From contig NC_003284.9 of NCBI RefSeq assembly GCF_000002985.6, positions 12,586,001 through 12,650,000 on the forward strand: a DNA stretch of 64,000 nucleotides, in the 5' to 3' direction. The position numbers and the translations under genes are program-made. Source of the stretch: Caenorhabditis elegans. Taxonomy: Eukaryota; Nematoda; Chromadorea; Rhabditida; Rhabditidae. This document shows positions 16,861 through 51,056 of this stretch, piece by piece. Below the pieces are notes generated by a model. The model was given only the letters and a program-made list of their open reading frames with translations. It did not search any database and had not been told where the DNA came from. Position 1 is the first letter of the stretch. Every line of letters begins with the position of its first letter.

Positions 16861-19170
16861 TCAATGTATTTTTTACAGACCTCAATCAAACGACGATGCA
16901 AGAAGGATGGAAGGATGGAAAAAGGAAGGAAAACATCCAAATTTGTAAGGAATTTTTTTTTGATTTTTTAACTAAACTGCAAATTTTTACAGATGCTGAA
17001 GGCTGTGATGAGACAAGATGATGGGCAATGAATGGAAGGATCAGGACGATTGCGATTGATGGATGGGGACAAGGGACGACGACGACGAAGAATCGGATAG
17101 GTGGATGGGTCGACGACGATCGGGATGGAACGGTTGGAACAGGATTCGGCGGAAAAAAACATGTAAGAAACATTCTCCTTTTAGCTTCAAGTAAAATGTA
17201 ACTTTTTACAGATCTCAGGCTAACGACGATGATGGATGGTAGGAACGATGATGGTTGGTAGGAAGGATGGATGGGAAAAAGGAACGAAACAATCCTAATT
17301 TGTTAGGCATTTTTTAAATGCTTAAACTACAAGTTTTTAAAGATGCTGTAATGAAAGCTGTGATGAACCAAACCGCCGGCCAATGGATGGAAAGGTCAGG
17401 AAGATCGAGATAGATTCGGGATGGATCGGGACGAAATGACGACGACGACGACGGATGGACAAATGTTCCTTCTTGTGAGTGTTCTGAACCGGGTTCAAAA
17501 GTAACAGGCAAAAGCTGCATTTTCGGTTTCACTGCTATCACCTGAGTTGATTTGTCAAAAAACATAAATGCTTCCAGGAACAACATGGTGGACAATGGAT
17601 GGAAGGATCAGGACGATCGGGATGGATGGCTTCGGGATGAATCAGGGCGACGACGACGACGCCGACGATGGATCGGATGGGTGGATAGATCGAAGACAAT
17701 CGGGATGGATTGGTAAGTGATCCTCTCTCCTTTTAGCTTCAATTAACATGTAACTTTTTGAAGATCTCAAGCAATCGATAATGATTAAAGGATGGATGGT
17801 TGGAACAATGGAAATAGAAAATCCAAAGTGTAAGGAATTCGTTTGATGCTGCATCTAAACTGAAAACGTTTACAGATGCTGAAAGCTGTGATGGAACAAA
17901 TTCTGGGCAGTGGATGGGATGGGCAAGACGATCACGATGGGTGGATTCGGGATGGATCGGGACGATGGACGACGACGACAAAGGATCGGATGGATGGATG
18001 GATCGACGACGATCGGAATGGATAGTTCCGGGACAGGTCGAGATGGAGATGGACAGCTGACATGTAACCTTTTACAGATCTCTAGCAAACGAAGAAGGAT
18101 GGATGGTAGGTCATTTAAACTAAGAACTTTTACAGATGTTGAAAGCTGTGATTGAACAAATTCTGGACTGGACATGGACTGGAATGGGCAGGCCGATCAG
18201 GATGAATGGATCGGGACGAGACGACGACGACGACAAACAATAAGGATGGGTGGATGGATTTGGACGATCGAAAGGGATTTGGGACAAAACGACGACGACA
18301 AAGGATGAACAAATTCGGGGCGGATCGGGAGTAAGTGAATCCATCTTGCTCCTTCTTGTGAGTGTAGCGTCCCCATTACGTTTACCTGGCTTGAACTGAA
18401 CTGGTTTGCTTGAATCTGTCACTGTCCAATTTCTGAACCGGGTTCAAAGTAGCAGGCAAGGGCTGCATTTTCGGATTCACTGCTACCCCCCTGAGTTGAT
18501 TTGTTTGGAAACAAACAAATCTTGTACCGTACTCAGAGGCAGTGAAACTGATTAATCTCTTAATGGGAAATGCGAACTCCTGCGAAAAAAGAACAAGGAG
18601 ACTGGAAATAGCGTCAAACAGACGAGGCTTATCGGACGGTTCTTGTCACATAGGTAAACTGTAATGGGTGATGCTGCACAGTTCTAACGGTACAGAACAT
18701 CACTTGAAGTTGCATGAATGGATTCGATCGATGGATGGATGGACGAGGCAACAACGACGACGAACGATTAGGATGGATGGATGGAAGGATCGATCGAGAG
18801 AGATGATGGCTTCGGGATGGATCGGAACGATGGACGACGACGACGATGGGTCGGATGGGTGAATGGATCTACGACGATCGGGATGGACTGGTAAGTGATC
18901 TTTTCTTCATTTAGCTTCAACTAGAATGCAACTTTTTACAGATCAAGCAAACAATAAAGGATGGATGGTAGGAAGGAAGGATGGATGGAAATAAGACAGG
19001 ATATAATCCAAACTTGTAAGGAATTTGTTTGATGTTTTGATGACAAGTACTAAACTTCAAGTTTTTACAGATGCTGAAAACTGTTTTGCAACAATATGGT
19101 GGAGGGATCAGGACGTTCGGGATGGATGGCTTCGGGATGGATCGGGACGATGGACGACGACGACTTTCTA
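16860..19170 (+). repeat. GATGGATGG-rich minisatellite with splice-like signals
   Basis: About five imperfect modules of a few hundred bases. Each module combines GATGGATGG/GACGACGAC tracts with two conserved anchors: TTTTTACAGATGCTGAAAGC (about 16,985, 17,335, 17,872, 18,130, 19,064) and TTTTTACAGATCTCAAGCAA (about 16,870, 17,208, 17,754, 18,072, 18,935). GTAAGTGATC follows some GATGG tracts (about 17,713 and 18,890), and TGTAAGGAATT others. These imitate nematode intron acceptors and donors. The open frames here are interrupted and repetitive. Reverse-complement modules occur at 24,900-26,720 and before 14,400. I see no real gene, but spliced transcripts are conceivable. Confidence 0.75.
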
Positions 19171-19545: not shown

Positions 19546-19589
19546 TTTTGGACAAAAAACTGAATCGTTTTTGGAAGTTTGGAAGGGTA

Positions 19590-20025
19590 AAAAAGGACGA
19601 GCATAATGTCTTATAAAGTGGCCGTCTTGGAAGCGAGGGTCGGATACGGTAAGACGATACTTTTCAGAACAACCGTGTTTCAGGTTTTAGTCTAGATTCT
19701 AGAGTTATAAACCTCGACTTCGAATCATACTTGTAGAGACGGGTCCGCACAAGCTTCATCAATATTTCAAATGTTGTCGGTAATGGGCTTTTTTTGTTGC
19801 GTTGTAGGGCCACGCGGACGTTATCGTGATAATTTTAGCAGTAATCTCTTGGCAACTTTTAGCCCCAAGGCTTTTCTCGTTCTACCCTGTACTACACGCA
19901 TAACCCATAAATCTGTAACTCTTATCTCTGTTTCTCGTTTTTCTCATGTCTCTCGAGCGAAGCTAGGAACTAGTGAAAACTTTTTCTCGGGGGAGCGCAG
20001 CGACCCGAGAATAGGGTGTTTTCCC
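19590..20025 (+). repeat. Direct repeat copy 1 flanking the central inverted repeat
   Basis: This segment matches 24,240-24,699 in the same orientation, diverged but colinear: GACGAGCATAA, then AAGACGAT/TAGACGAT, then TCGACTTCGAATCATACTT, then GGCAACTTTTAGCCCCAAGG, ending in TTTTTCTCGGGGGAGCGCAG and a GGGTGTTTTCCCGT terminus. Both copies carry a similar open frame, but it is rich in indels between copies and has no domain. Equal orientation around a unit suggests LTRs or a tandem duplication boundary. No primer-binding site or reverse transcriptase is visible, so I do not call an LTR element. Confidence 0.75.
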
Positions 20026-20135
20026 GTGACAGCGGAGCAACGATAGTCTGTCGATAGTTAGAAAAATCTATGGGTAAAAATCCTTCTAACTGAAAAGACA
20101 CTGTAAAACGATTGTTTCGTTCTGGAAAAGGCGAT

Positions 20136-20150
20136 GGGGGGGGGGGGGGG
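20136..20150 (+). repeat. Mononucleotide G tract, 15 G
   Basis: Fifteen consecutive G inside the centre of the palindrome, a second G-quadruplex-capable tract in the window. Confidence 0.9.
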
Positions 20151-20259
20151 TTAGAGTGGGGAATAACAAATAGAAAACTAAAAACTTGAAGCTGGATACC
20201 TCGAGAAATAGACGTATTTCTCTCCCTGATCTTCTCGCTCACTGTTTCCGTTTTGTAAG

Positions 20260-21750
20260 TAAAAACGAAAACTGTCCACCTTCTTACATGTTTCCCCGGA
20301 ACCCGCTACACTAATCGGCTATTATCTTGAAAACCAGTTATGGTATCATTGAGAAGAACGAACATTATCTCAAAAAACTCCGAACTCTCGTTTTCCTCAG
20401 CGGGAAAAACAGACGATAACTAGCTATCCTCTGTTCAAAACTCGAACAAAATTTCTCTCGACCCAAAACTGAGAAGGTCGTCCTTCCCACGACAGAAAAT
20501 TGTCGTACGTCTGGCTTTCCTAGGTAGAACTGTCGGGAAAAAGCACACGATACTCTACCCCGCGCTAAATATACACTTTCCTCTGCAGAAACTGCTACAA
20601 ATTCTATATTTTCTCGACGGAGGCCGTCGCACATCCCACTTTCTCGACAGAAGCAGTCGGACATCGCACTTTCTCGACAGAAGCTGTCGGATCTATTATC
20701 TTCCTCGGCAGAAGTTGTCGGGCCTACTACCTTTCTCGACAGAAGCTGTCGGACATCACACTTTCCTCGACAGAAGCTGTCGGACATCACACTTTCCTCG
20801 ACAGAACCTGTCGAACATCACACTTTCGTCGACAGAAGCTGTCGGACATCACCCTTTCCTCGACAGAAGCTGTCGGACATCACGCTTTCCTCGACAGAAG
20901 CTGTCGGGCCTCACACTTTCATCGACAGAAGCTGCCGGATCTATTACCTTCTCCGACCGATGCTGTCGGACCTCATTCTCACCTTGCCAGAAGCTGTCGA
21001 ATATACAAACCTTCTTCGACGGAGGCTGTCGAAAAACTCCACATAAAAACTGACCGGGGACCAAAATTAATTTTATAAAACCGCACCCCGCCTCGACGTT
21101 TCTTTTACCTTGATTTTGTCAAAAAGGGAAAACAATTTATTCTAAAATTAGGTAACGATATCGATATCTGACGAGGCGATGCGAAGTTTTAAAAACTAAA
21201 CTAAGCAGCTGGAGACTGAAATCACCTGTCCAGACCATGGACCGGTTATACACTTCTTACTCTTTTAATAACCCAAATATGCCGAGATTGATTATTTACG
21301 TAGAGAAATTTAAAAAATAAAAATAAAAAGCGAGATCAATAGCAAGCAATTTGACGAAAAACGAGCGGTTTACAAAGATATGTTATTTGAAAGAGCGACT
21401 AGAATCTAGACTTAAAATATTTTGAGAAGGGGAGGAAAAGGATAGCACATTGAGACGAAAGCAAGAGATAAAACAAGATCTACCAAAAACGGAAAACTAA
21501 TTTCCGACTATCCGCCGGACTTTTAGCCGAAAAGAATAATTTAAGTTTAATAACAGCGAACGATCGGAGAGAAAGGAGAAAATTCAAATACTCACACACA
21601 TAAGCGCTAACTATTGCCTAAATGACGAAAAATATTTACAAAAATCACTAAACAACCCCTAATTAATGAAAAAATGGCAAAAATTCGCTAAAAAATCGCT
21701 AAAAAACGCATAAAATCGATAAAAACACGACCTCTACGCTACTCACACGT
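20260..21750 (+). repeat. Central inverted repeat, left arm
   Basis: This pairs, with considerable divergence, with 22,115-23,810 in reverse complement. The innermost part is clearest: ACGACCTCTACGCTACTCACACGTA (split here as ACGACCTCTACG and CTACTCACACGTA, ending about 21,752) mirrors TACGTGTGAGTACCG and TAGAGGTCGTG (from about 22,117), and ACAACCCCTAATTAAT mirrors ATTAATTAGGGGTTTT. Outwards it includes the hairpin array and a stretch near 20,270-20,340. This inverted repeat is much older than the outer palindrome. Confidence 0.75.
20615..21032 (+). repeat. Tandem array of ~31-nt hairpin units (left, 14 units)
   Basis: Fourteen contiguous units of 30-32 nt. The consensus is CGACAGAAGCTGTCG followed by a linker such as GACATCACACTTTCCT. 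The first 15 bases form a perfect 6-bp stem with an AAG loop. In several diverged units a change in one stem strand is matched in the other, for example CGACGGAGGCCGTCG. There are no unique spacers between units. Frames stay open through parts of the array on both strands but encode only a repeated low-complexity peptide. A site bound by a dimeric protein, such as a transposase, is a plausible but unproven role. Confidence 0.9.
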
Positions 21751-21754
21751 AGAA

Positions 21755-21875
21755 TGAGGAGAAACAGGCGCCGCAGCGCCCGCGGGGCGCTTGTCGCGGC
21801 GAGACCCGTGCCGGAGGAAAATGCCTGCGCCTTTAGTTTGCTACTGTCTCTCTCTCACTCCGCTGTCACCTCAAA
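21755..21875 (+). other. GC-rich centre of the repeat block
   Basis: A strongly GC-rich island (GGCGCCGCAGCGCCCGCGGG, then TTGTCGCGGCGAGACCCGTG) in otherwise AT-rich DNA, at the symmetry centre of the central inverted repeat. It has no coding potential that I recognise. By position it is the loop or unique core of the inverted structure. Confidence 0.6.
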
Positions 21876-22005
21876 AATGGCATTGCGGCGGATTTCAGAA
21901 AAATGGCATTGCGGCGGATTTCAGAAAAATGGCATTGCGGCGGATTTTTGAAAAATGGCATTGCGGCTCATTTCAGAAAAATGGCATTGCGGCGGATTTA
22001 GCGTA
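21876..22005 (+). repeat. 26-nt tandem repeat, ATGGCATTGCGGCGG type
   Basis: Five copies of AAAAATGGCATTGCGGCGG plus ATTTCAG or a variant, unit about 26 nt. Three more copies lie at 24,697-24,768, abutting the end of the right palindrome arm, so this unit marks two junctions. Confidence 0.9.
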
Positions 22006-22114
22006 TAGAATTTTTGAAATATTTGAAATTTTTGGAATTTTTTTAATTCCAAAAATTCTAAAATTCCAAAACTCAAAAATTCCAAAATTTCGAAATTCCA
22101 AAAATTCCTAAAAT

Positions 22115-23810
22115 TATGTACGTGTGAGTACCGTAGAGGTCGTGATTTTATGGATTTTTTTGCGTTTTTTGCGATTTTTTTGCGAATTTTAACTGTTTTT
22201 CAATTAATTAGGGGTTTTATAGTGTGTTAGGTGTATATTTTTAGTCATTTAAGCAATTTTTAGCGTCATTGAGTGGAAAACAGGAAGCGGAGTGTGTGTG
22301 AAAGGAATTTTCGTAATAATTTCGCGTTTTAATTCATTTATTATTATAATTTTCTCCTTTCTCTCCGATCGTTCGCTGTTATTGGCTTAAAATGTTCATT
22401 GCGCCTAGAAGTCAGGCTTGTATTCGAAAATTTGTTTCTGTTTTTCCGTTTTTCGTTCGATTCTTGTTAATCTCTTATCATAGCCACAACCTGTTAAGAA
22501 TTTCCGTTCTTTCTCAAACACTCTTTAAGCCTAGATTTATTCGCGCCTTTAAAATATTATATCCCTTCGTAAACCGTTCTGTTTTGGCCGATTTTTTCGT
22601 GTTACCGATCTCGCATGTCGTCGTTATTTCACTTTTTACATAATAATCATCCGTTTTATCGTACTCGAGTTATGTAGAGCATAAGAAATGCAGAAAAGGT
22701 CCATGATGTGGACAGGTGATCTCAATCCTCAGGGATTTTCATTCAGTCATGTAAACTGCACCTCGCCTCGCGAAATTTAATTTTACTTAATTATAGAATT
22801 CGTTTGCGGTTTTCTGACAAACTAAGGTAATAAAGAGACACCGAGGCCGCTTTCGGTTTATTAGTCTGTTTTAGGAGGTCGACAAGGGCCAATAAATTAG
22901 AGAGTAAATTTAGCTTTTACAGGTTATCAGACGGGAAAGGTAAGATGCGCGCGATGTCTCATAAGTTTCAGTAGATAATAGTTTTTGAACCAGATAGGTT
23001 TTTGCGATAAAGAGTTTAGTCCGACAGTTTCTGTCGAGGAAAGTGCGATGATCGACGGCCTCATTCGATGAAAGTGTGAGTTTTCGACGGCTTCTACCGA
23101 GGAAAGTGTAAGTTCTGACAGCTTCTGTCGAAGAAAATGTAAGTTCCGACAGCTTCTGTCGAAGAAAGTGTGAGTTTTCCGATCACTTCGGTCGAGGAAA
23201 GTTTGACAGCTGCCGTCGACGAAAGTGTGCGTTTTTCGACAGCTTCTGTCGAAGAAAGTGTGAGTTTCCGACAGCTTCTGTCGAAGAAAGTGGGAGTTCC
23301 GACAGTTTCTGTCGAAGAAAGTGTGAGTTTCCGACAGCATCTGTCGAGGAAAGTTCGAGTTTTCCGACAGCTTCTGTCGAGGAAAGTGTGAGTGTTCCGA
23401 CAGCTTATGTCGAGGAAAGTTTGAGTTTTCGACAGCTTCTGCCGAGGAAAGTGTGAGTGTTCCGGCAGCTTATGTCGAGGAAAGTAACAGGTCCGACAGC
23501 TTGTGTCAAGAAAAGTGCGATGACCGGCAGCTCCGGTCGCGGAAAGGACAAGATCTTGCAGTTTCTCTGAGAATGTACGAGATTCACGGCAGCTCCTGCT
23601 GAAAGAAATTTTGGATTTCCGGCGCTTGGTGGAGCATAGAGCGGTTTTTTCTTTCCAGTCAAGGAAAGGGATAGTTCTGAATTTCGAGGTATCGTTTTCG
23701 TTTCTAATTTAGGCCATAACCGTTTCTAAGACACTAGCTGAGTAGAGATTTCCACGGTGGTAACAGATCCCGGAATGGAGAGCTGTAGAAACGTATAAGA
23801 AGTTGACACT
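22115..23810 (-). repeat. Central inverted repeat, right arm
   Basis: Reverse-complement partner of 20,260-21,750. It contains CTCCGATCGTTCGCTGTTAT near 22,362-22,382, mirroring AACAGCGAACGATCGGAGAG at about 21,553, and the second hairpin array. Outer similarity fades near 23,810. Open frames in it are not supported as genes. Confidence 0.7.
23023..23547 (-). repeat. Tandem array of ~31-nt hairpin units (right, ~17 units)
   Basis: About 17 units in reverse orientation to the left array, with consensus CCGACAGCTTCTGTCGAAGA then AAGTGTGAGTTT. Several units keep a complementary stem despite substitutions, such as CGGCAGCTCCGGTCG. Unit number differs from the left array, showing independent expansion. 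Confidence 0.9.
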
Positions 23811-24239
23811 TATAGTGTTTCTTTACGAAGCGAATACAGACTAGGAACAGTAAGGTTAACAGGGAATTTGTCTTTTTCGCGCGATATCCAGCTCCACCAA
23901 GTTTTTTGCATCGTTTTTCCCTCAGCGTGTCAAACGGGTCATATTGGCGTTTCAGTTCAAGGGTATCTTACCCGAGACAGAGTCAGTGTAAGGTTCCGTT
24001 CCTAGAATATGGCAATAATATGTTGCTTTTTTGATAATTTTCAGTTGCCGGAGTGTGCGGGGTTCAAGACACGTCTTCATGACATTATGTATACTTTGAG
24101 AGCGACGACGGCGAGAGTCGGAGGAACAGGGTTCGAAACTTCAGAACGAACAGTAGAATTCTCTCAAATAGGAGATTAAATGCTCCTCTTTTCCACGTTT
24201 TCATAAACTATTAGAATCATCGCTTTGGGCGAAGTGGAA

Positions 24240-24699
24240 AATCAGACGAGCATAACGTATTTATCAAAGTGACCATCGTGGAAGTGAGGGCCGTATACTG
24301 TTAGACGATATTTTTCGGAACAACAGAGAAGAGCGAAAGGTAGACCTAATTTCAGGTTATAGTCTTGCATCTAAAGCTATAAGCCTCGACTTCGAATCAT
24401 ACTTTTCGAGAATGGTCGGCACAAGCTTCATCAATACTTCAAAATTTTGTCGGTAATGGGCGTTTTTGCGTTATATGTGCACACAAACACTATCTTCATA
24501 CCTTTAGTAGTAATCATTTGGCAACTTTTAGCCCCAAGGCTTTTCTTGTTCTACCCTGTACTACACGCAAAGCCCATAAATCTGTAACTCAATCTACTCT
24601 TGTCTCGTTTTCTCATTTCTCTCGAGCGAAGCTGGAAACTAGGGAAAACTTTTTCTCGGGGGAGCGCAGCGACCCGAGAATTGGGTGTTTTCCCGTAAA
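24240..24699 (+). repeat. Direct repeat copy 2
   Basis: Same-strand partner of 19,590-20,025, ending in the shared GGGTGTTTTCCCGT at about 24,683-24,696. It is followed at once by three copies of the ATGGCATTGCGGCGG unit and then by the inner end of the right palindrome arm. Confidence 0.75.
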
Positions 24700-25395
24700 A
24701 TGGCATTGCGGCGGATTTCAGAAAAATGGCATTGCGGCTGATTTTTCAAAAATGGCATTGCGGCGGATTCATTAAGAGATTAATCAGTTTCACTGCCTCT
24801 GAGTACGGTACAAGATTTGTTTGTTTCCAAACAAATCAACTCAGGGGGGTAGCAGTGAATCCGAAAATGCAGCCCTTGCCTGCTACTTTGAACCCGGTTC
24901 AGAAATTGGACAGTGACAGATTCAAGCAAACCAGTTCAATTCAAGCCAGGTAAACGTAATGGGGACGCTACACTCACAAGAAGGAGCAAGATGGATTCAC
25001 TTACTCCCGATCCGCCCCGAATTTGTTCATCCTTTGTCGTCGTCGTTTTGTCCCAAATCCCTTTCGATCGTCCAAATCCATCCACCCATCCTTATTGTTT
25101 GTCGTCGTCGTCGTCTCGTCCCGATCCATTCATCCTGATCGGCCTGCCCATTCCAGTCCATGTCCAGTCCAGAATTTGTTCAATCACAGCTTTCAACATC
25201 TGTAAAAGTTCTTAGCTTAGATGACACATCAAACAAATTTCTTACACTTTGGAAGTTCCAACCATCCATCTTTTCCTACCATCCATCCTTCTTCGTTTGC
25301 TAGAGATCTGTAAAAGGTTACATGTCAGCTGTCCATCTCCATCTCGACCTGTCCCGGAACTATCCATTCCGATCGTCGTCGTCCATCGTCCCGAT

Positions 25396-26504
25396 CAGGG
25401 CTGGGACTTTTTCGTTTTCGCGTTTTCGTTTTTTCGTTATTTTCGGGGTTTTGACGAAAACGAATTTTTTCGTTTTCGTTTTCGAAAATGTTCGAAAAAC
25501 GAAAATAAAACGACTTTATTTAATTCTGGTATTTTTTCCACTTTCTTTCGAACTTTCGCCGAAATTTTGCTCTCCGGTGTGGATAGTATTGAAAAATCAA
25601 TTATTTTCTTCTAAGACTCAGTACTGAAGATCAACTTTAAAAACAAAAAAGGCAACAGTTTTCAGTTTTGGATAACAATTAAAATACTCTTTTGCGTAAC
25701 AATAGATTCATTCATTTTAAGACAGGACGTTTCTTTGTTCTGAGCTCCAATGTTGGGCTATCTTATTGAATGCACCGAATTTGGCTAAAAATTCATTCAA
25801 GCAACAAGTAAAACATATTTCCACAGTATCTAATAAAATTTTGATGATTTTTGAAAAATTAAAGCTTGTTGTTTCTTCAATTCAAAAGTTCAAAACACAA
25901 TTTCAGATGAAAAATAGAGTTACAGTAGAATCCTTATGTTCGAAAAGGGCTTTAAGTTCTATAGCCTATAAGCACCAATAGAGAATATACGGTAGTTTGT
26001 GAAAAGTTTTCGAATAAAAATTTTGAAAAATACGAGCTTTTGAGAAAATTTAAAGAAATGTCGCATATTTCGACCCCTACGAATTTAAACAAAATTAAAA
26101 CATAAAAAATGTCGAAAAAAAAATTTTTTTTGGTCGACTTCCAAAATTATGAGTGGCAAAAACTGAGTAATTGCCACTTTTTGACAGTAAATAAAAATCG
26201 TTCAAAAAATTTTTGAAAAGTTTTATCATGATATTTGGTCATTTTGGGACTAAAGGAGTGGGTTTTAACAATTTACCCACTGGCACTACTCCACCTTTAA
26301 TGAGCGAAGTAAGTCTATGAGAGAGAGGTAAATGAGTACTTGCCACCAAAAAAGCTTTTGAGGCAACATATGGCCTAAAAACTGTAAGTCCAGTTGTAGA
26401 TTTGAAACAGTGCCATTTTCGTTTTCGTTTTTGTTTTCGTGTTTTAAAACGAACATTTTCGTTTTCGGTTTCGAAAATGAGATTTCGAAAAAGTCCCAGC
26501 CCTG
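25396..26504. mobile_element. hAT-like non-autonomous element (1109 bp)
   Basis: Terminal inverted repeats CAGGGCTGGGACTTTTTCG (19 bp, perfect) are flanked by perfect 8-bp duplications GTCCCGAT (25,388-25,395 and 26,505-26,512). The allelic-like empty site survives in the left arm as GGATCGGGACGATGG (about 17,955-17,969), so insertion followed the palindrome duplication. Subterminal regions are rich in CGTTTTCG motifs. No transposase is encoded; the interior is AT-rich and non-coding. Confidence 0.93.
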
Positions 26505-26720
26505 GTCCCGATCCATCCCGAATCCACCCATCGTGATCGTCTTGCCCATCCCATCCACTGCCCAGAATTTGTTCCATCACAGCTTTCAGCATCTGTAAAC
26601 GTTTTCAGTTTAGATGCAGCATCAAACGAATTCCTTACAGTTTAGGATTTTATCCTTCCTTTTTTCCACCCATCCATCCTTTAATCATCATCGATTGCTT
26701 GAGATCTTCAAAAAGTTACA

Positions 26721-50152: not shown

Positions 50153-51056
50153 TTAATGCTTTCTCTGCTTTCTGGTTGGACACTTGCAGTATCCGGCATC
50201 CTCTCCTGGCTGTCCTGCCTCTCCATAGTTTCCGAATCCACCATCGTAACCTGGAGCTCCATCCTTTCCAGCTGGTCCTTGCTCTCCTTCTGGCCCTGGC
50301 TCTCCTGGGCTTCCTGGTGGCCCACTGTTTCCAGAGAATCCCTTTGGTCCAACGAGTCCTGGAAGTCCTGGTGGTCCAGATGGTCCCTTCTCTCCACGAA
50401 CTCCCTCTCTTCCTGGAGCTCCCTTCTCGCCTTCCTTTCCTGCCTCTCCCATCATTCCCATATCTCCTGGAGCTCCCTGGGCTCCTGGTGATCCTTCGCG
50501 TCCGATCTCTCCTTGATCTCCCTGGTTTCCTGGAAGTCCTTGTGGTCCTGGCTGTCCTGGATATCCCTGGATATAGTTGTTCCCGGTGGTCCTGGTGGGC
50601 AGACGCGGCATCCGTCCTTTGACTTTTCAGCTTCTGGGGCGATTCCGGCTAATCCCTGTTCTCCCTGCTCTCCTGGTGTTCCTGGAAGCCCGTCAAGTCC
50701 ATCGGATCCTGGTCGTCCCTTTGGTCCAGTTGGGCACAAATTTTGTTGGTCGCAGTTGCATTGCTCATTTCCAGCCTGTCTCTTTACTTGGTGTCTCTTA
50801 AGTCCTGGAATCTCTCCGCGAAGGTGAACCATGTCTCCCCAGACTTCAGCCTGAGAATTCATTCATGATAAAAACAAAAAAAACTTGAGAGAAATTATAC
50901 CTGGAGAGTATTGAACTCTTCCATGCTGAATGCAAGGCTGGTTCTGATATTCTCAATTCTCGAAAAGAAAACTGGAAGATAAAACAAAGTGGCGGTAATA
51001 CTAATGGTACAGATGGTGATTGCACCATAAGCTGCAATACGAGCCGAGTCACTCAT
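50153..51056 (-). CDS. Cuticle collagen, with an apparent 1-nt frameshift
   Basis: Exon 1 (51,056-50,901) encodes a 52-residue N-terminus with a membrane/signal-anchor segment (AAYGAITICTISITATLFYL), and exon 2 starts at 50,850. The nematode cuticle-collagen layout is clear: an N-terminal domain, a subtilisin-like cleavage site (KRHQVKR), Cys-rich CNCDQQNLC, a first Gly-X-Y block, CRVCPPGPPG, a long second Gly-X-Y block, and a C-terminal CKCP. In the sequence as given, the frame changes at about 50,580. Upstream codons run through GCRVCPPGPPG, whereas the second Gly-X-Y block lies in another frame, from there to the TAA at 50,153-50,155. One missing A in the GGGAACAAC run would explain this. 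It is either a recent pseudogene or a base-call or assembly error. An intact protein would have about 280 residues, normal for the family. I cannot tell which col gene it is. Confidence 0.85.

Follow-up and report, generated by a model that had tools for sequence, protein, structure and literature searches.

The question raised by this locus is why two arrays of hairpin-forming units lie face to face, and in particular whether they form the paired subterminal arrays of a fold-back element, as sites for a dimeric protein, or a structured RNA with a selected stem. Both arrays lie in the window, meaning the whole 64,000-nucleotide stretch of Caenorhabditis elegans DNA that was analyzed, inside the M2 portions of two element copies, b and c, which are described below:

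20613..21031 (units 20615-21031), plus strand: left array, 14 units of ~31 bp, inside M2 of copy b (tandem-repeat detection)
23022..23546, minus strand: right array, 17 units, mostly with 31-33 bp spacing, inside M2 of copy c

The units are ~31-33 bp long and opposite in orientation between left and right, and one extra diverged unit starting at 23601 brings the right side to 17-18 units in all. These counts bear out the first-pass annotation of this DNA, which described two inverted hairpin-unit arrays of 14 and about 17 units. The GC-rich core that it placed between them is not seen: the 2 kb between the arrays has a GC content of 36.7%, the same as the window (36.6%), the arrays themselves are richer (53% and 49%), and only ~130 bp between them is GC-rich (21741-21869, 62%). 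In the 100.3-Mb C. elegans genome, the exact 15-mer CGACAGAAGCTGTCG has 33 occurrences, in six clusters, and its reversed control has 0, which excludes chance.

The annotation also proposed that the dyad symmetry of the units is selected or is copied as a palindrome. The unit statistics allow up to 4 mismatches to the 15-mer, which gives 32 units in the window and 108 in seven arrays; a partial array in L065 is left out of the counts. Among the 32 window units, 3 stem cells are changed on both sides and still form Watson-Crick pairs, against 1.08 from shuffles (P = 0.079); 1 two-sided change is broken, and 26 changes are one-sided, 10 of these to G.T. When only the 22 distinct window units are counted, the paired double changes number 3 against 1.54 expected (P = 0.19). 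With G.T scored as paired, 175 of the 192 cells in the 32 units pair, against 171.9 expected (P = 0.035; P = 0.11 for distinct units). A pair counter applied to 28 of the 32 window units (21 distinct rows, after removal of the outlier at 23601 and of three identical copies of the commonest unit) finds no clear excess of both-side changes (2 against 1.4 expected, 191 of 500 shuffles as high) or of the covariation score (0.163 against 0.140, 64 of 500 shuffles as high). Across the seven arrays, paired double changes reach 7 against 3.45 in 39 distinct units (P = 0.03) and 12 against 4.28 in all 108 units (P = 0.0006), both uncorrected for descent. The comparison of paired with one-sided changes, put forward by the annotation as a check, thus lends compensation at best weak support. 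Its two quoted examples of stem halves changing together divide when read from the sequence: in CGACGGAGGCCGTCG an A-T pair has truly become G-C through changes on both sides, whereas CGGCAGCTCCGGTCG carries one G.T and one A.G apposition and is uncompensated. Conservation in the window units is 90% and 93% in the stem arms, 79% in the left flank, and 62% in the right flank; the loop reaches 89% and single flank columns 93-96%, so conservation of the unit is not tied to pairing. Together with the window counts and the weak signal of the seven arrays, this does not uphold selection on dyad symmetry.

Five other loci also carry exact units (C1:1.08M, C3:6.56M, C3:7.24M, C4:12.30M, and C4:15.78M), in each case all on a single strand, which makes the inverted layout local to the window. 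The two arms of the window, ~68% alike over the longest alignment, come from different subfamilies (left B, right A) of one dispersed element, the left matching its copies on chromosome III (C3) and the right those on chromosomes I and IV (C1 and C4); the earlier proposal that the arrays sit in a mobile element therefore holds. The copies and their junctions are arranged as follows:

19583..20011, minus strand: copy a, subfamily A fragment with S2 and the start of M2, 96.5% identical to C4:12.30M
19984..20011, minus strand: terminal hairpin at the S end of copy a
20012..20038, minus strand: R1-repeat tail of 27 bp, abutting S2 of copy a (internal R|S junction), 100% identical to two C4 copies
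20047..21869, plus strand: copy b, subfamily B fragment with M2 (from position 663 of the S2-M2-R2 unit) and its array, ending in R2
21741..21869, plus strand: R repeat of copy b, truncated ~14 bp short of the end in other copies, minisatellite next
21873..21999, plus strand: 26-bp minisatellite AAAAATGGCATTGCGGCGGATTTCAG at the b/c junction (tandem-repeat detection)
22045..22115, no strand assigned: AATTCCAA simple repeat within the b/c junction
22119..24680, minus strand: copy c, subfamily A fragment with S2 and M2 with its array, R2 lost save ~10 bp
24653..24680, minus strand: terminal hairpin at the S end of copy c, TTCTCGGG..CCCGAGAA, opposite strand also folded
24697..24769, plus strand: the 26-bp minisatellite AAAAATGGCATTGCGGCGGATTTCAG again, in the place of most of R1 before S2 of copy c

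Copy b is without S repeats, M1, and R1, and its pieces are 90-97% identical to C3:7.24M and 91-93% identical to C3:6.56M. The main part of copy c shows 91-96% identity to the C1 and C4 copies, and its S-side pieces show 77-86% identity to the two C4 copies. The AAAAATGGCATTGCGGCGGATTTCAG minisatellite forms long arrays elsewhere in the genome as well.

A fold-back element or structured RNA would account for the inverted arrays in the window, for the stem conservation above that of the flanks, and for the double changes summed over seven arrays, yet the loop is conserved about as well as the stem, covariation in the window units shows no clear excess, and the arms are of differing subfamilies; it is very improbable. 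A dimeric protein that binds the units, or a structured RNA, is conceivable, although no result of the analysis shows either. The likeness to fold-back elements, inverted arms, is confined to the window locus, and 0 of the 5 other array loci have exact units on both strands. The genome-wide search for exact units finds no other locus with inverted arrays, which is what the annotation had itself named as speaking against its fold-back layout. The fold-back layout is rejected on the one-strand arrays at the other loci and the two subfamilies of the arms. The opposite orientation probably reflects an accident of nested insertion or rearrangement of two broken copies.

The intact element follows the plan S1-M1-R1|S2-M2-R2, with split direct repeats and the array within M2; on the opposite strand, with A the reverse complement of R and B that of S, this reads A1-M2-B1|A2-M1-B2. 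All four repeats are present at four loci, of which C4:15.78M has the first part of its R1 replaced, the S repeats of C3:6.56M are degenerate or partly lost, and M1 material lies upstream of R1-M2-R2 at all five array loci outside the window. An LTR element is rejected because the repeats are split and partly internal rather than terminal alone. The repeats evolve in concert within loci: summed over locus pairs, 178 sites of S1/S2 and R1/R2 group by locus and 0 by position (S, 68 to 0 in six comparisons of four loci; R, 110 to 0 in ten comparisons of five loci), the C4:12.30M/C4:15.78M pair being uninformative at 0 to 0 for both S and R. The S end is found at 16 genomic places. Among the seven insertions that have both ends, no target-site duplication recurs consistently; five of them have flank matches of 3-6 nt, at shifting offsets. 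Read on the flipped strand, the hairpin end is followed by a T in 5/7 insertions, and the other end starts with T in 7/7. The element contains 40 frames of at least 90 aa, of which 37 were scanned, three crossing a locus edge being left out. No Pfam family exceeds the cut-off in these 37 frames, among them reverse transcriptase (RT), methyltransferase, and gag; the weak sub-cut-off matches fall mostly in repetitive array frames. The Dam-type methyltransferase PF05869 has 0 matches genome-wide, and tblastn finds no residual tyrosine recombinase (YR) in M1 or M2 units (lowest E, 0.98).

The genome contains one match to the tyrosine recombinase family PF00589, on C2 (2.9e-15 on the protein). An R-like (A) repeat, a strong match, lies before this gene, and S-like (B) sequence with a terminal hairpin, a modest match, lies after it. 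Upstream, on the coding strand, a 138-column alignment to R continues into the start of M1 with a score of 80, against a maximum of 39 in 300 shuffles and 706 background chunks. Under stricter scoring, the A match of the C3 unit reaches 40 and that of the C1 unit 39, where 60 shuffles yield no more than 30; the C4:12.30M unit scores 34, just over its shuffle maximum of 33, and the three M2-side units do not exceed their shuffles. On the downstream side, B repeats of 130 bp reach 48 (C1 unit) and 49 (C4:12.30M unit); the corresponding shuffle maxima are 38 and 41, and the background maxima over 376 chunks are 41 and 44. A true copy fragment, L056 (score 114), was set aside from the S background control, in which the next highest score is 46. 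The C3 unit scores 40 against a shuffle maximum of 41, and longer 200-bp queries give 55 against a shuffle maximum of 58 and 53 against a background maximum of 53. The downstream side also has a shared 17-mer and a hairpin at the equivalent place, with different stem letters. On C5, the compact A-B copy L068 matches the A and B parts of the YR element at 97% identity and is bounded by both, and at C4:6.09M, 61 bp of the YR element (93%) is fused to the S end of the array-element family.

The reading preferred here, with a probability of roughly 0.7, is that each array is a minisatellite inside a broken copy, one of subfamily B and the other of subfamily A, of a single low-copy, apparently non-coding, non-autonomous PAT-like YR element. 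As part of the same reading, the split-direct-repeat plan is that of PAT/Ngaro/VIPER-type YR elements, with M1 probably at the YR position of nematode Pat1 and the M2 array where gag and RT would sit. A YR supplied in trans would integrate a circle, the B|A junction of the circle would be the recombination site, and an RNA-templated cycle with reverse transcription would re-make both copies of each repeat. Gene conversion or dimerized DNA circles could also give rise to concerted repeats. Since RT, methyltransferase, and gag are not found in the frames scanned, the element is described as working like a non-autonomous PAT element and not as PAT proper.

Two other classes of mobile element bear on this assignment. 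Helitrons have a CTRR end and insert at A^T, neither of which is seen at the element ends examined; a Helitron, first suspected from the tandem units and the hairpin, was dropped because the Rep-type matches share no place with S ends. Helentrons insert by the T^T rule. A Helentron-like rolling-circle family, with a terminal hairpin, no target-site duplication, T/T insertion, head-to-tail dimers, and internal tandem repeats, fits the hairpin directly at one end, the T at either end of most insertions, and the tandem units, and PMC7492417 describes tandem repeats in oyster Helentron elements. The Rep-type family PF14214, however, has 13 genome matches (C2, C6:16.95M), all away from the 16 S-end places, so that no Rep/helicase partner with the element termini is found; concerted S and R within loci would be unexpected for two independent units. 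This family is an unlikely source. Helentron-associated elements with tandem repeats resemble the array element in their hairpin end, lack of target-site duplication, and satellite-like internal array, traits in part drawn from general background; here, the direct repeats are split and concerted, and the related A repeat adjoins a tyrosine recombinase and not a Rep/helicase. A Crypton-like DNA element, with YR and no RT, would make A-YR-B the whole autonomous element and A-M2-B|A-M1-B dimers formed by circle integration. This agrees with the finding of no RT or methyltransferase in the sequences searched and with the five stand-alone A-x-B units (V15.11, IV16.75, X15.92, the C2 YR element, and L068). 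The order of M1 before M2 at the five array loci outside the window and the concerted repeats are, by contrast, what is expected if the double unit replicates, and the survey passages of PMC4157794 report a single Crypton among the surveyed species (in a cnidarian) besides one likely contaminant, further ones appearing only when the parameters are lenient; a Crypton-like origin is improbable.

The stand-alone units are all the YR-side half or compact, and no stand-alone A-M2-B unit with both ends occurs among the loci examined. A tentative extension of the PAT-like reading is that C. elegans carries a family of non-autonomous YR elements mobilized in trans, of which the YR-side half (A-M1-B, A-YR-B, or A-B) might have moved by itself, as a circle that resolves at the internal B|A junction; a retrotransposon would in this way shed a DNA-transposon half. 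No description of the array-element family was recognized in titles and abstract openings of the literature searched, and a Repbase or Dfam catalogue name may exist. The PAT-like reading explains away an apparent fold-back array and ties a repeat family for which no name was found to the only detected tyrosine-recombinase gene of a model genome. If this is true, C. elegans becomes a place to date and compare non-autonomous YR elements, split repeats, and solo halves among wild isolates. YR elements are described in PMC4157794 as relatively rare and poorly understood, and one match, partial, is tabulated there for C. elegans.

Among known systems, VIPER/SIRE of trypanosomatids offers a non-autonomous derivative of a YR element: the portion of PMC6681497 on SIRE presents it as a short VIPER derivative, a region with A2 and B2, which resembles the compact L068. 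The host is a different one, the likeness is one of description, and the intact array-bearing copies keep all four repeats. PAT and Pat1-like YR retrotransposons of the DIRS group differ in that the array element has no detected gag, RT, or methyltransferase and carries a minisatellite in M2, and in that the YR gene is missing from the array copies and resides in a separate, single-copy relative. PAT elements and the array element share the repeat order A1-..-B1|A2-..-B2 and the lack of a consistent target-site duplication, in keeping with the statement in PMC4157794 that YR elements move without one. The same source, in its account of nematode-form Pat1, places the internal repeats between the methyltransferase and the YR, a repeat junction well within the element, as in the array element.

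Two oppositely oriented arrays of a ~31-bp hairpin unit are present in the window, as the first-pass annotation had described, with units mostly 31 to 33 bp apart in each. The GC-rich core it placed between them is not borne out, the interval having 36.7% GC compared to 36.6% for the whole window. A run of 15 consecutive G residues lies at 20136-20150.

Features of the array locus (window positions)
C6:12,586,001-12,650,000, forward strand, window stretch, in a genome of 100,286,401 bases and seven contigs, C6 presumably being the X chromosome
17997-18565 and 24770-25387, inverted pair of the GATGGATGG/CGACGACGA repeat family, 91% identical, bracketing the whole cluster
19583-20038, minus strand, third fragment (copy a)
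20613-21031, plus strand, left array (in copy b)
21873-21999 and 24697-24769, 26-bp minisatellite AAAAATGGCATTGCGGCGGATTTCAG, near both ends of copy c
23022-23546, minus strand, right array (in copy c)
25396-26504, 1,109-bp insertion inside another repeat, inverted ends CAGGGCTGGGAC..
50272-50541, 18-bp and 45-bp tandem repeats

The core of the unit is conserved, without a pattern that singles out base pairing. Mean column identity among the window units is 90% and 93% for the stem arms and 79% (individual columns up to 96%) and 62% for the left and right flanks; the loop, at 89%, is conserved nearly as well as the arms, so that conservation does not follow pairing. Compensating stem changes, which the first-pass annotation had also described, are at best weakly supported. 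Among the 32 window units (at most 4 mismatches; expectations from shuffles), both-sided changes that remain Watson-Crick occupy 3 stem cells, compared to 1.08 expected (P=0.079), one cell carries a both-sided change with a broken pair, and 26 cells are changed on a single side, in 10 cases giving G.T. When G.T is counted as paired along with Watson-Crick, 175 of 192 cells pair, compared to 171.9 expected (P=0.035). The corresponding values for the 22 distinct window units are 3 paired double changes against 1.54 (P=0.19) and 115 cells against 112.7 (P=0.11). Over seven arrays, paired double changes number 7 against 3.45 in 39 distinct units (P=0.03) and 12 against 4.28 in all 108 units (P=0.0006). 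The shuffle statistics exaggerate compensation because many units are inherited copies, and a pair counter covering 28 of the 32 window units finds no clear excess of paired changes.

The exact 15-mer of the unit core occurs 33 times at six places in the genome: 10 copies lie in the window, 6 on one strand and 4 on the other, and the rest are at C1:1.08M (contig and megabase position; 9), C3:6.56M (3), C3:7.24M (3), C4:12.30M (5), and C4:15.78M (3), each of these five places having exact units on one strand only. The genome-wide search thus yields no further layout of the fold-back kind that had been proposed, and paired inverted arrays are seen only at the window locus. At C4:3.88M, a partial array within an M2 fragment of subfamily B abuts an S end of subfamily A in inverted orientation; the B-type match begins at unit position 663 both there and in the window, a common break point. 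The two arms belong to different subfamilies. Pieces of the left arm are 90 to 97% identical to C3:7.24M and 91 to 93% to C3:6.56M, and the main part of the right arm is 91 to 96% identical to the C1 and C4 copies, its S-side pieces falling to 77 to 86% with the C4 copies. Between the arms, identity is 67.6% over 1378 columns and up to 74 to 79% in the arrays alone.

Comparison between loci reveals two repeats, S and R. The S end is a 28-bp hairpin, TTCTCGGGTCGCTGCGCTCCCCCGAGAA, found at 16 places genome-wide (at most 3 mismatches), and R has 17 matches. The order S1-M1-R1|S2-M2(array)-R2 is found in four elements.

Full-length elements
C1:1.08M, 4701 bp
C3:7.24M, 3574 bp
C4:12.30M, 3912 bp
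C4:15.78M, 3926 bp

At C3:6.56M, M1, R1, M2, and R2 are likewise ordered, with S repeats degenerate or partly lost; a palindromic stretch of ~425 bp interrupts the array there. S-M1-R alone is found at V15.11, IV16.75, and X15.92 (1335 to 1347 bp), and only fragments at C4:4.66M, C4:3.88M, and C4:6.09M. In flipped orientation, the seven insertions that retain both ends start with T and finish with GAGAA, and no target-site duplication is consistent among them; flank matches of 3 to 6 nt with shifting offsets, partly A/T runs, accompany five of the seven. No Pfam family exceeds the curated cutoff in the 37 of 40 frames scanned (at least 90 aa, four intact elements); the best match below it has an E value of 0.0004, and weak matches lie mostly in repetitive array frames.

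In S, 68 sites unite both repeats of one locus against another locus, as do 110 sites in R; these are sums over between-locus comparisons and hence not mutually independent, and the comparison of the two C4 loci is uninformative for both repeats. No R site groups R1 with R1. A dimer of two independent units predicts S1 resembling S1 of other loci, for which 0 sites are found, a zero that carries weight even though the summed sites are interdependent. Because the repeats group by locus, either gene conversion or the copying of both repeats from a single template is required.

Copies a, b, and c are each truncated, and their junctions contain minisatellite and simple repeats. Nested insertion and rearrangement within this repeat-rich pocket may have brought the arrays to face each other, a history that would account for the layout with selection unnecessary. 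The minisatellite also forms long arrays at C1:4.540-4.545M, C4:12.730-12.733M, and C6:11.4428-11.4438M, and the bracketing repeat family has more copies on C6, C1, and C2. The 1,109-bp insertion, which we take to be a hAT-like nonautonomous element by type, has an 8-bp target duplication, GTCCCGAT, at 25388-25395 and 26505-26512. The tandem repeats at 50272-50541 are presumably collagen-like on the minus strand.

A genome search with PF00589 (tyrosine recombinase [YR]) gives a sole match, C2:13211441-13211917 (protein E value of 2.9e-15), with two overlapping open frames read separately. It sits between frames on the opposite strand that presumably belong to an SNF2-type helicase gene. On the coding strand, the sequence upstream of the YR aligns collinearly with reverse-complement R, and this alignment extends some 16 bases into the start of M1, a stretch that the alignment to the M2-side unit of C3:7.24M does not reach. 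The alignment running into M1 scores 80, compared to maxima of 39 in both 300 shuffles and 706 background chunks. Under stricter scoring, the C3 unit reaches 40 and the C1 unit 39, compared to 30 in 60 shuffles, the C4:12.30M unit reaches only 34 against 33, and none of three M2-side units tried exceeds the shuffles. Downstream lies B-like sequence; the C3 unit gives no significant match to it, scoring 40 where shuffles reach 41. The 130-bp B repeats score 48 for the C1 unit (maxima of 38 in shuffles and 41 in 376 background chunks) and 49 for the C4:12.30M unit (41 and 44, likewise); 200-bp B queries do not exceed the controls. A 17-mer near the end of the B-like stretch is common to the YR element and the array family, and the terminal hairpin of the former, TTCTCCC..GGGAGAA, has the same position as in the latter with different letters. 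A compact copy on C5 holds the A and B parts only, which match the YR element with 97% identity along 161 and 177 bp, and the matches of both end at like points, within a few bases. A 61-bp piece of the YR element (93% identity) at C4:6.09M lies ~60 bp ahead of S-side sequence of the array family.

On the YR-coding strand, where A and B denote reverse-complement R and S, the family reads A1-M2-B1|A2-M1-B2 and shares the split-direct-repeat plan A1-B1-A2-B2 described for PAT elements in PMC4157794. The same paper places the internal repeats of nematode-form Pat1 between methyltransferase and YR, states that YR domain action leaves no target-site duplication, and lists one YR element match, scored partial, for C. 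elegans. Since reverse transcriptase, methyltransferase, and gag are not found in the array family, it is not filed as PAT proper. The family may be mobilized in trans, and its repeats may be renewed via an RNA template. SIRE, the nonautonomous version of VIPER, is equivalent to the A2 and B2 region of VIPER according to PMC6681497. On these comparisons, the array family appears to work like a nonautonomous PAT-type element.
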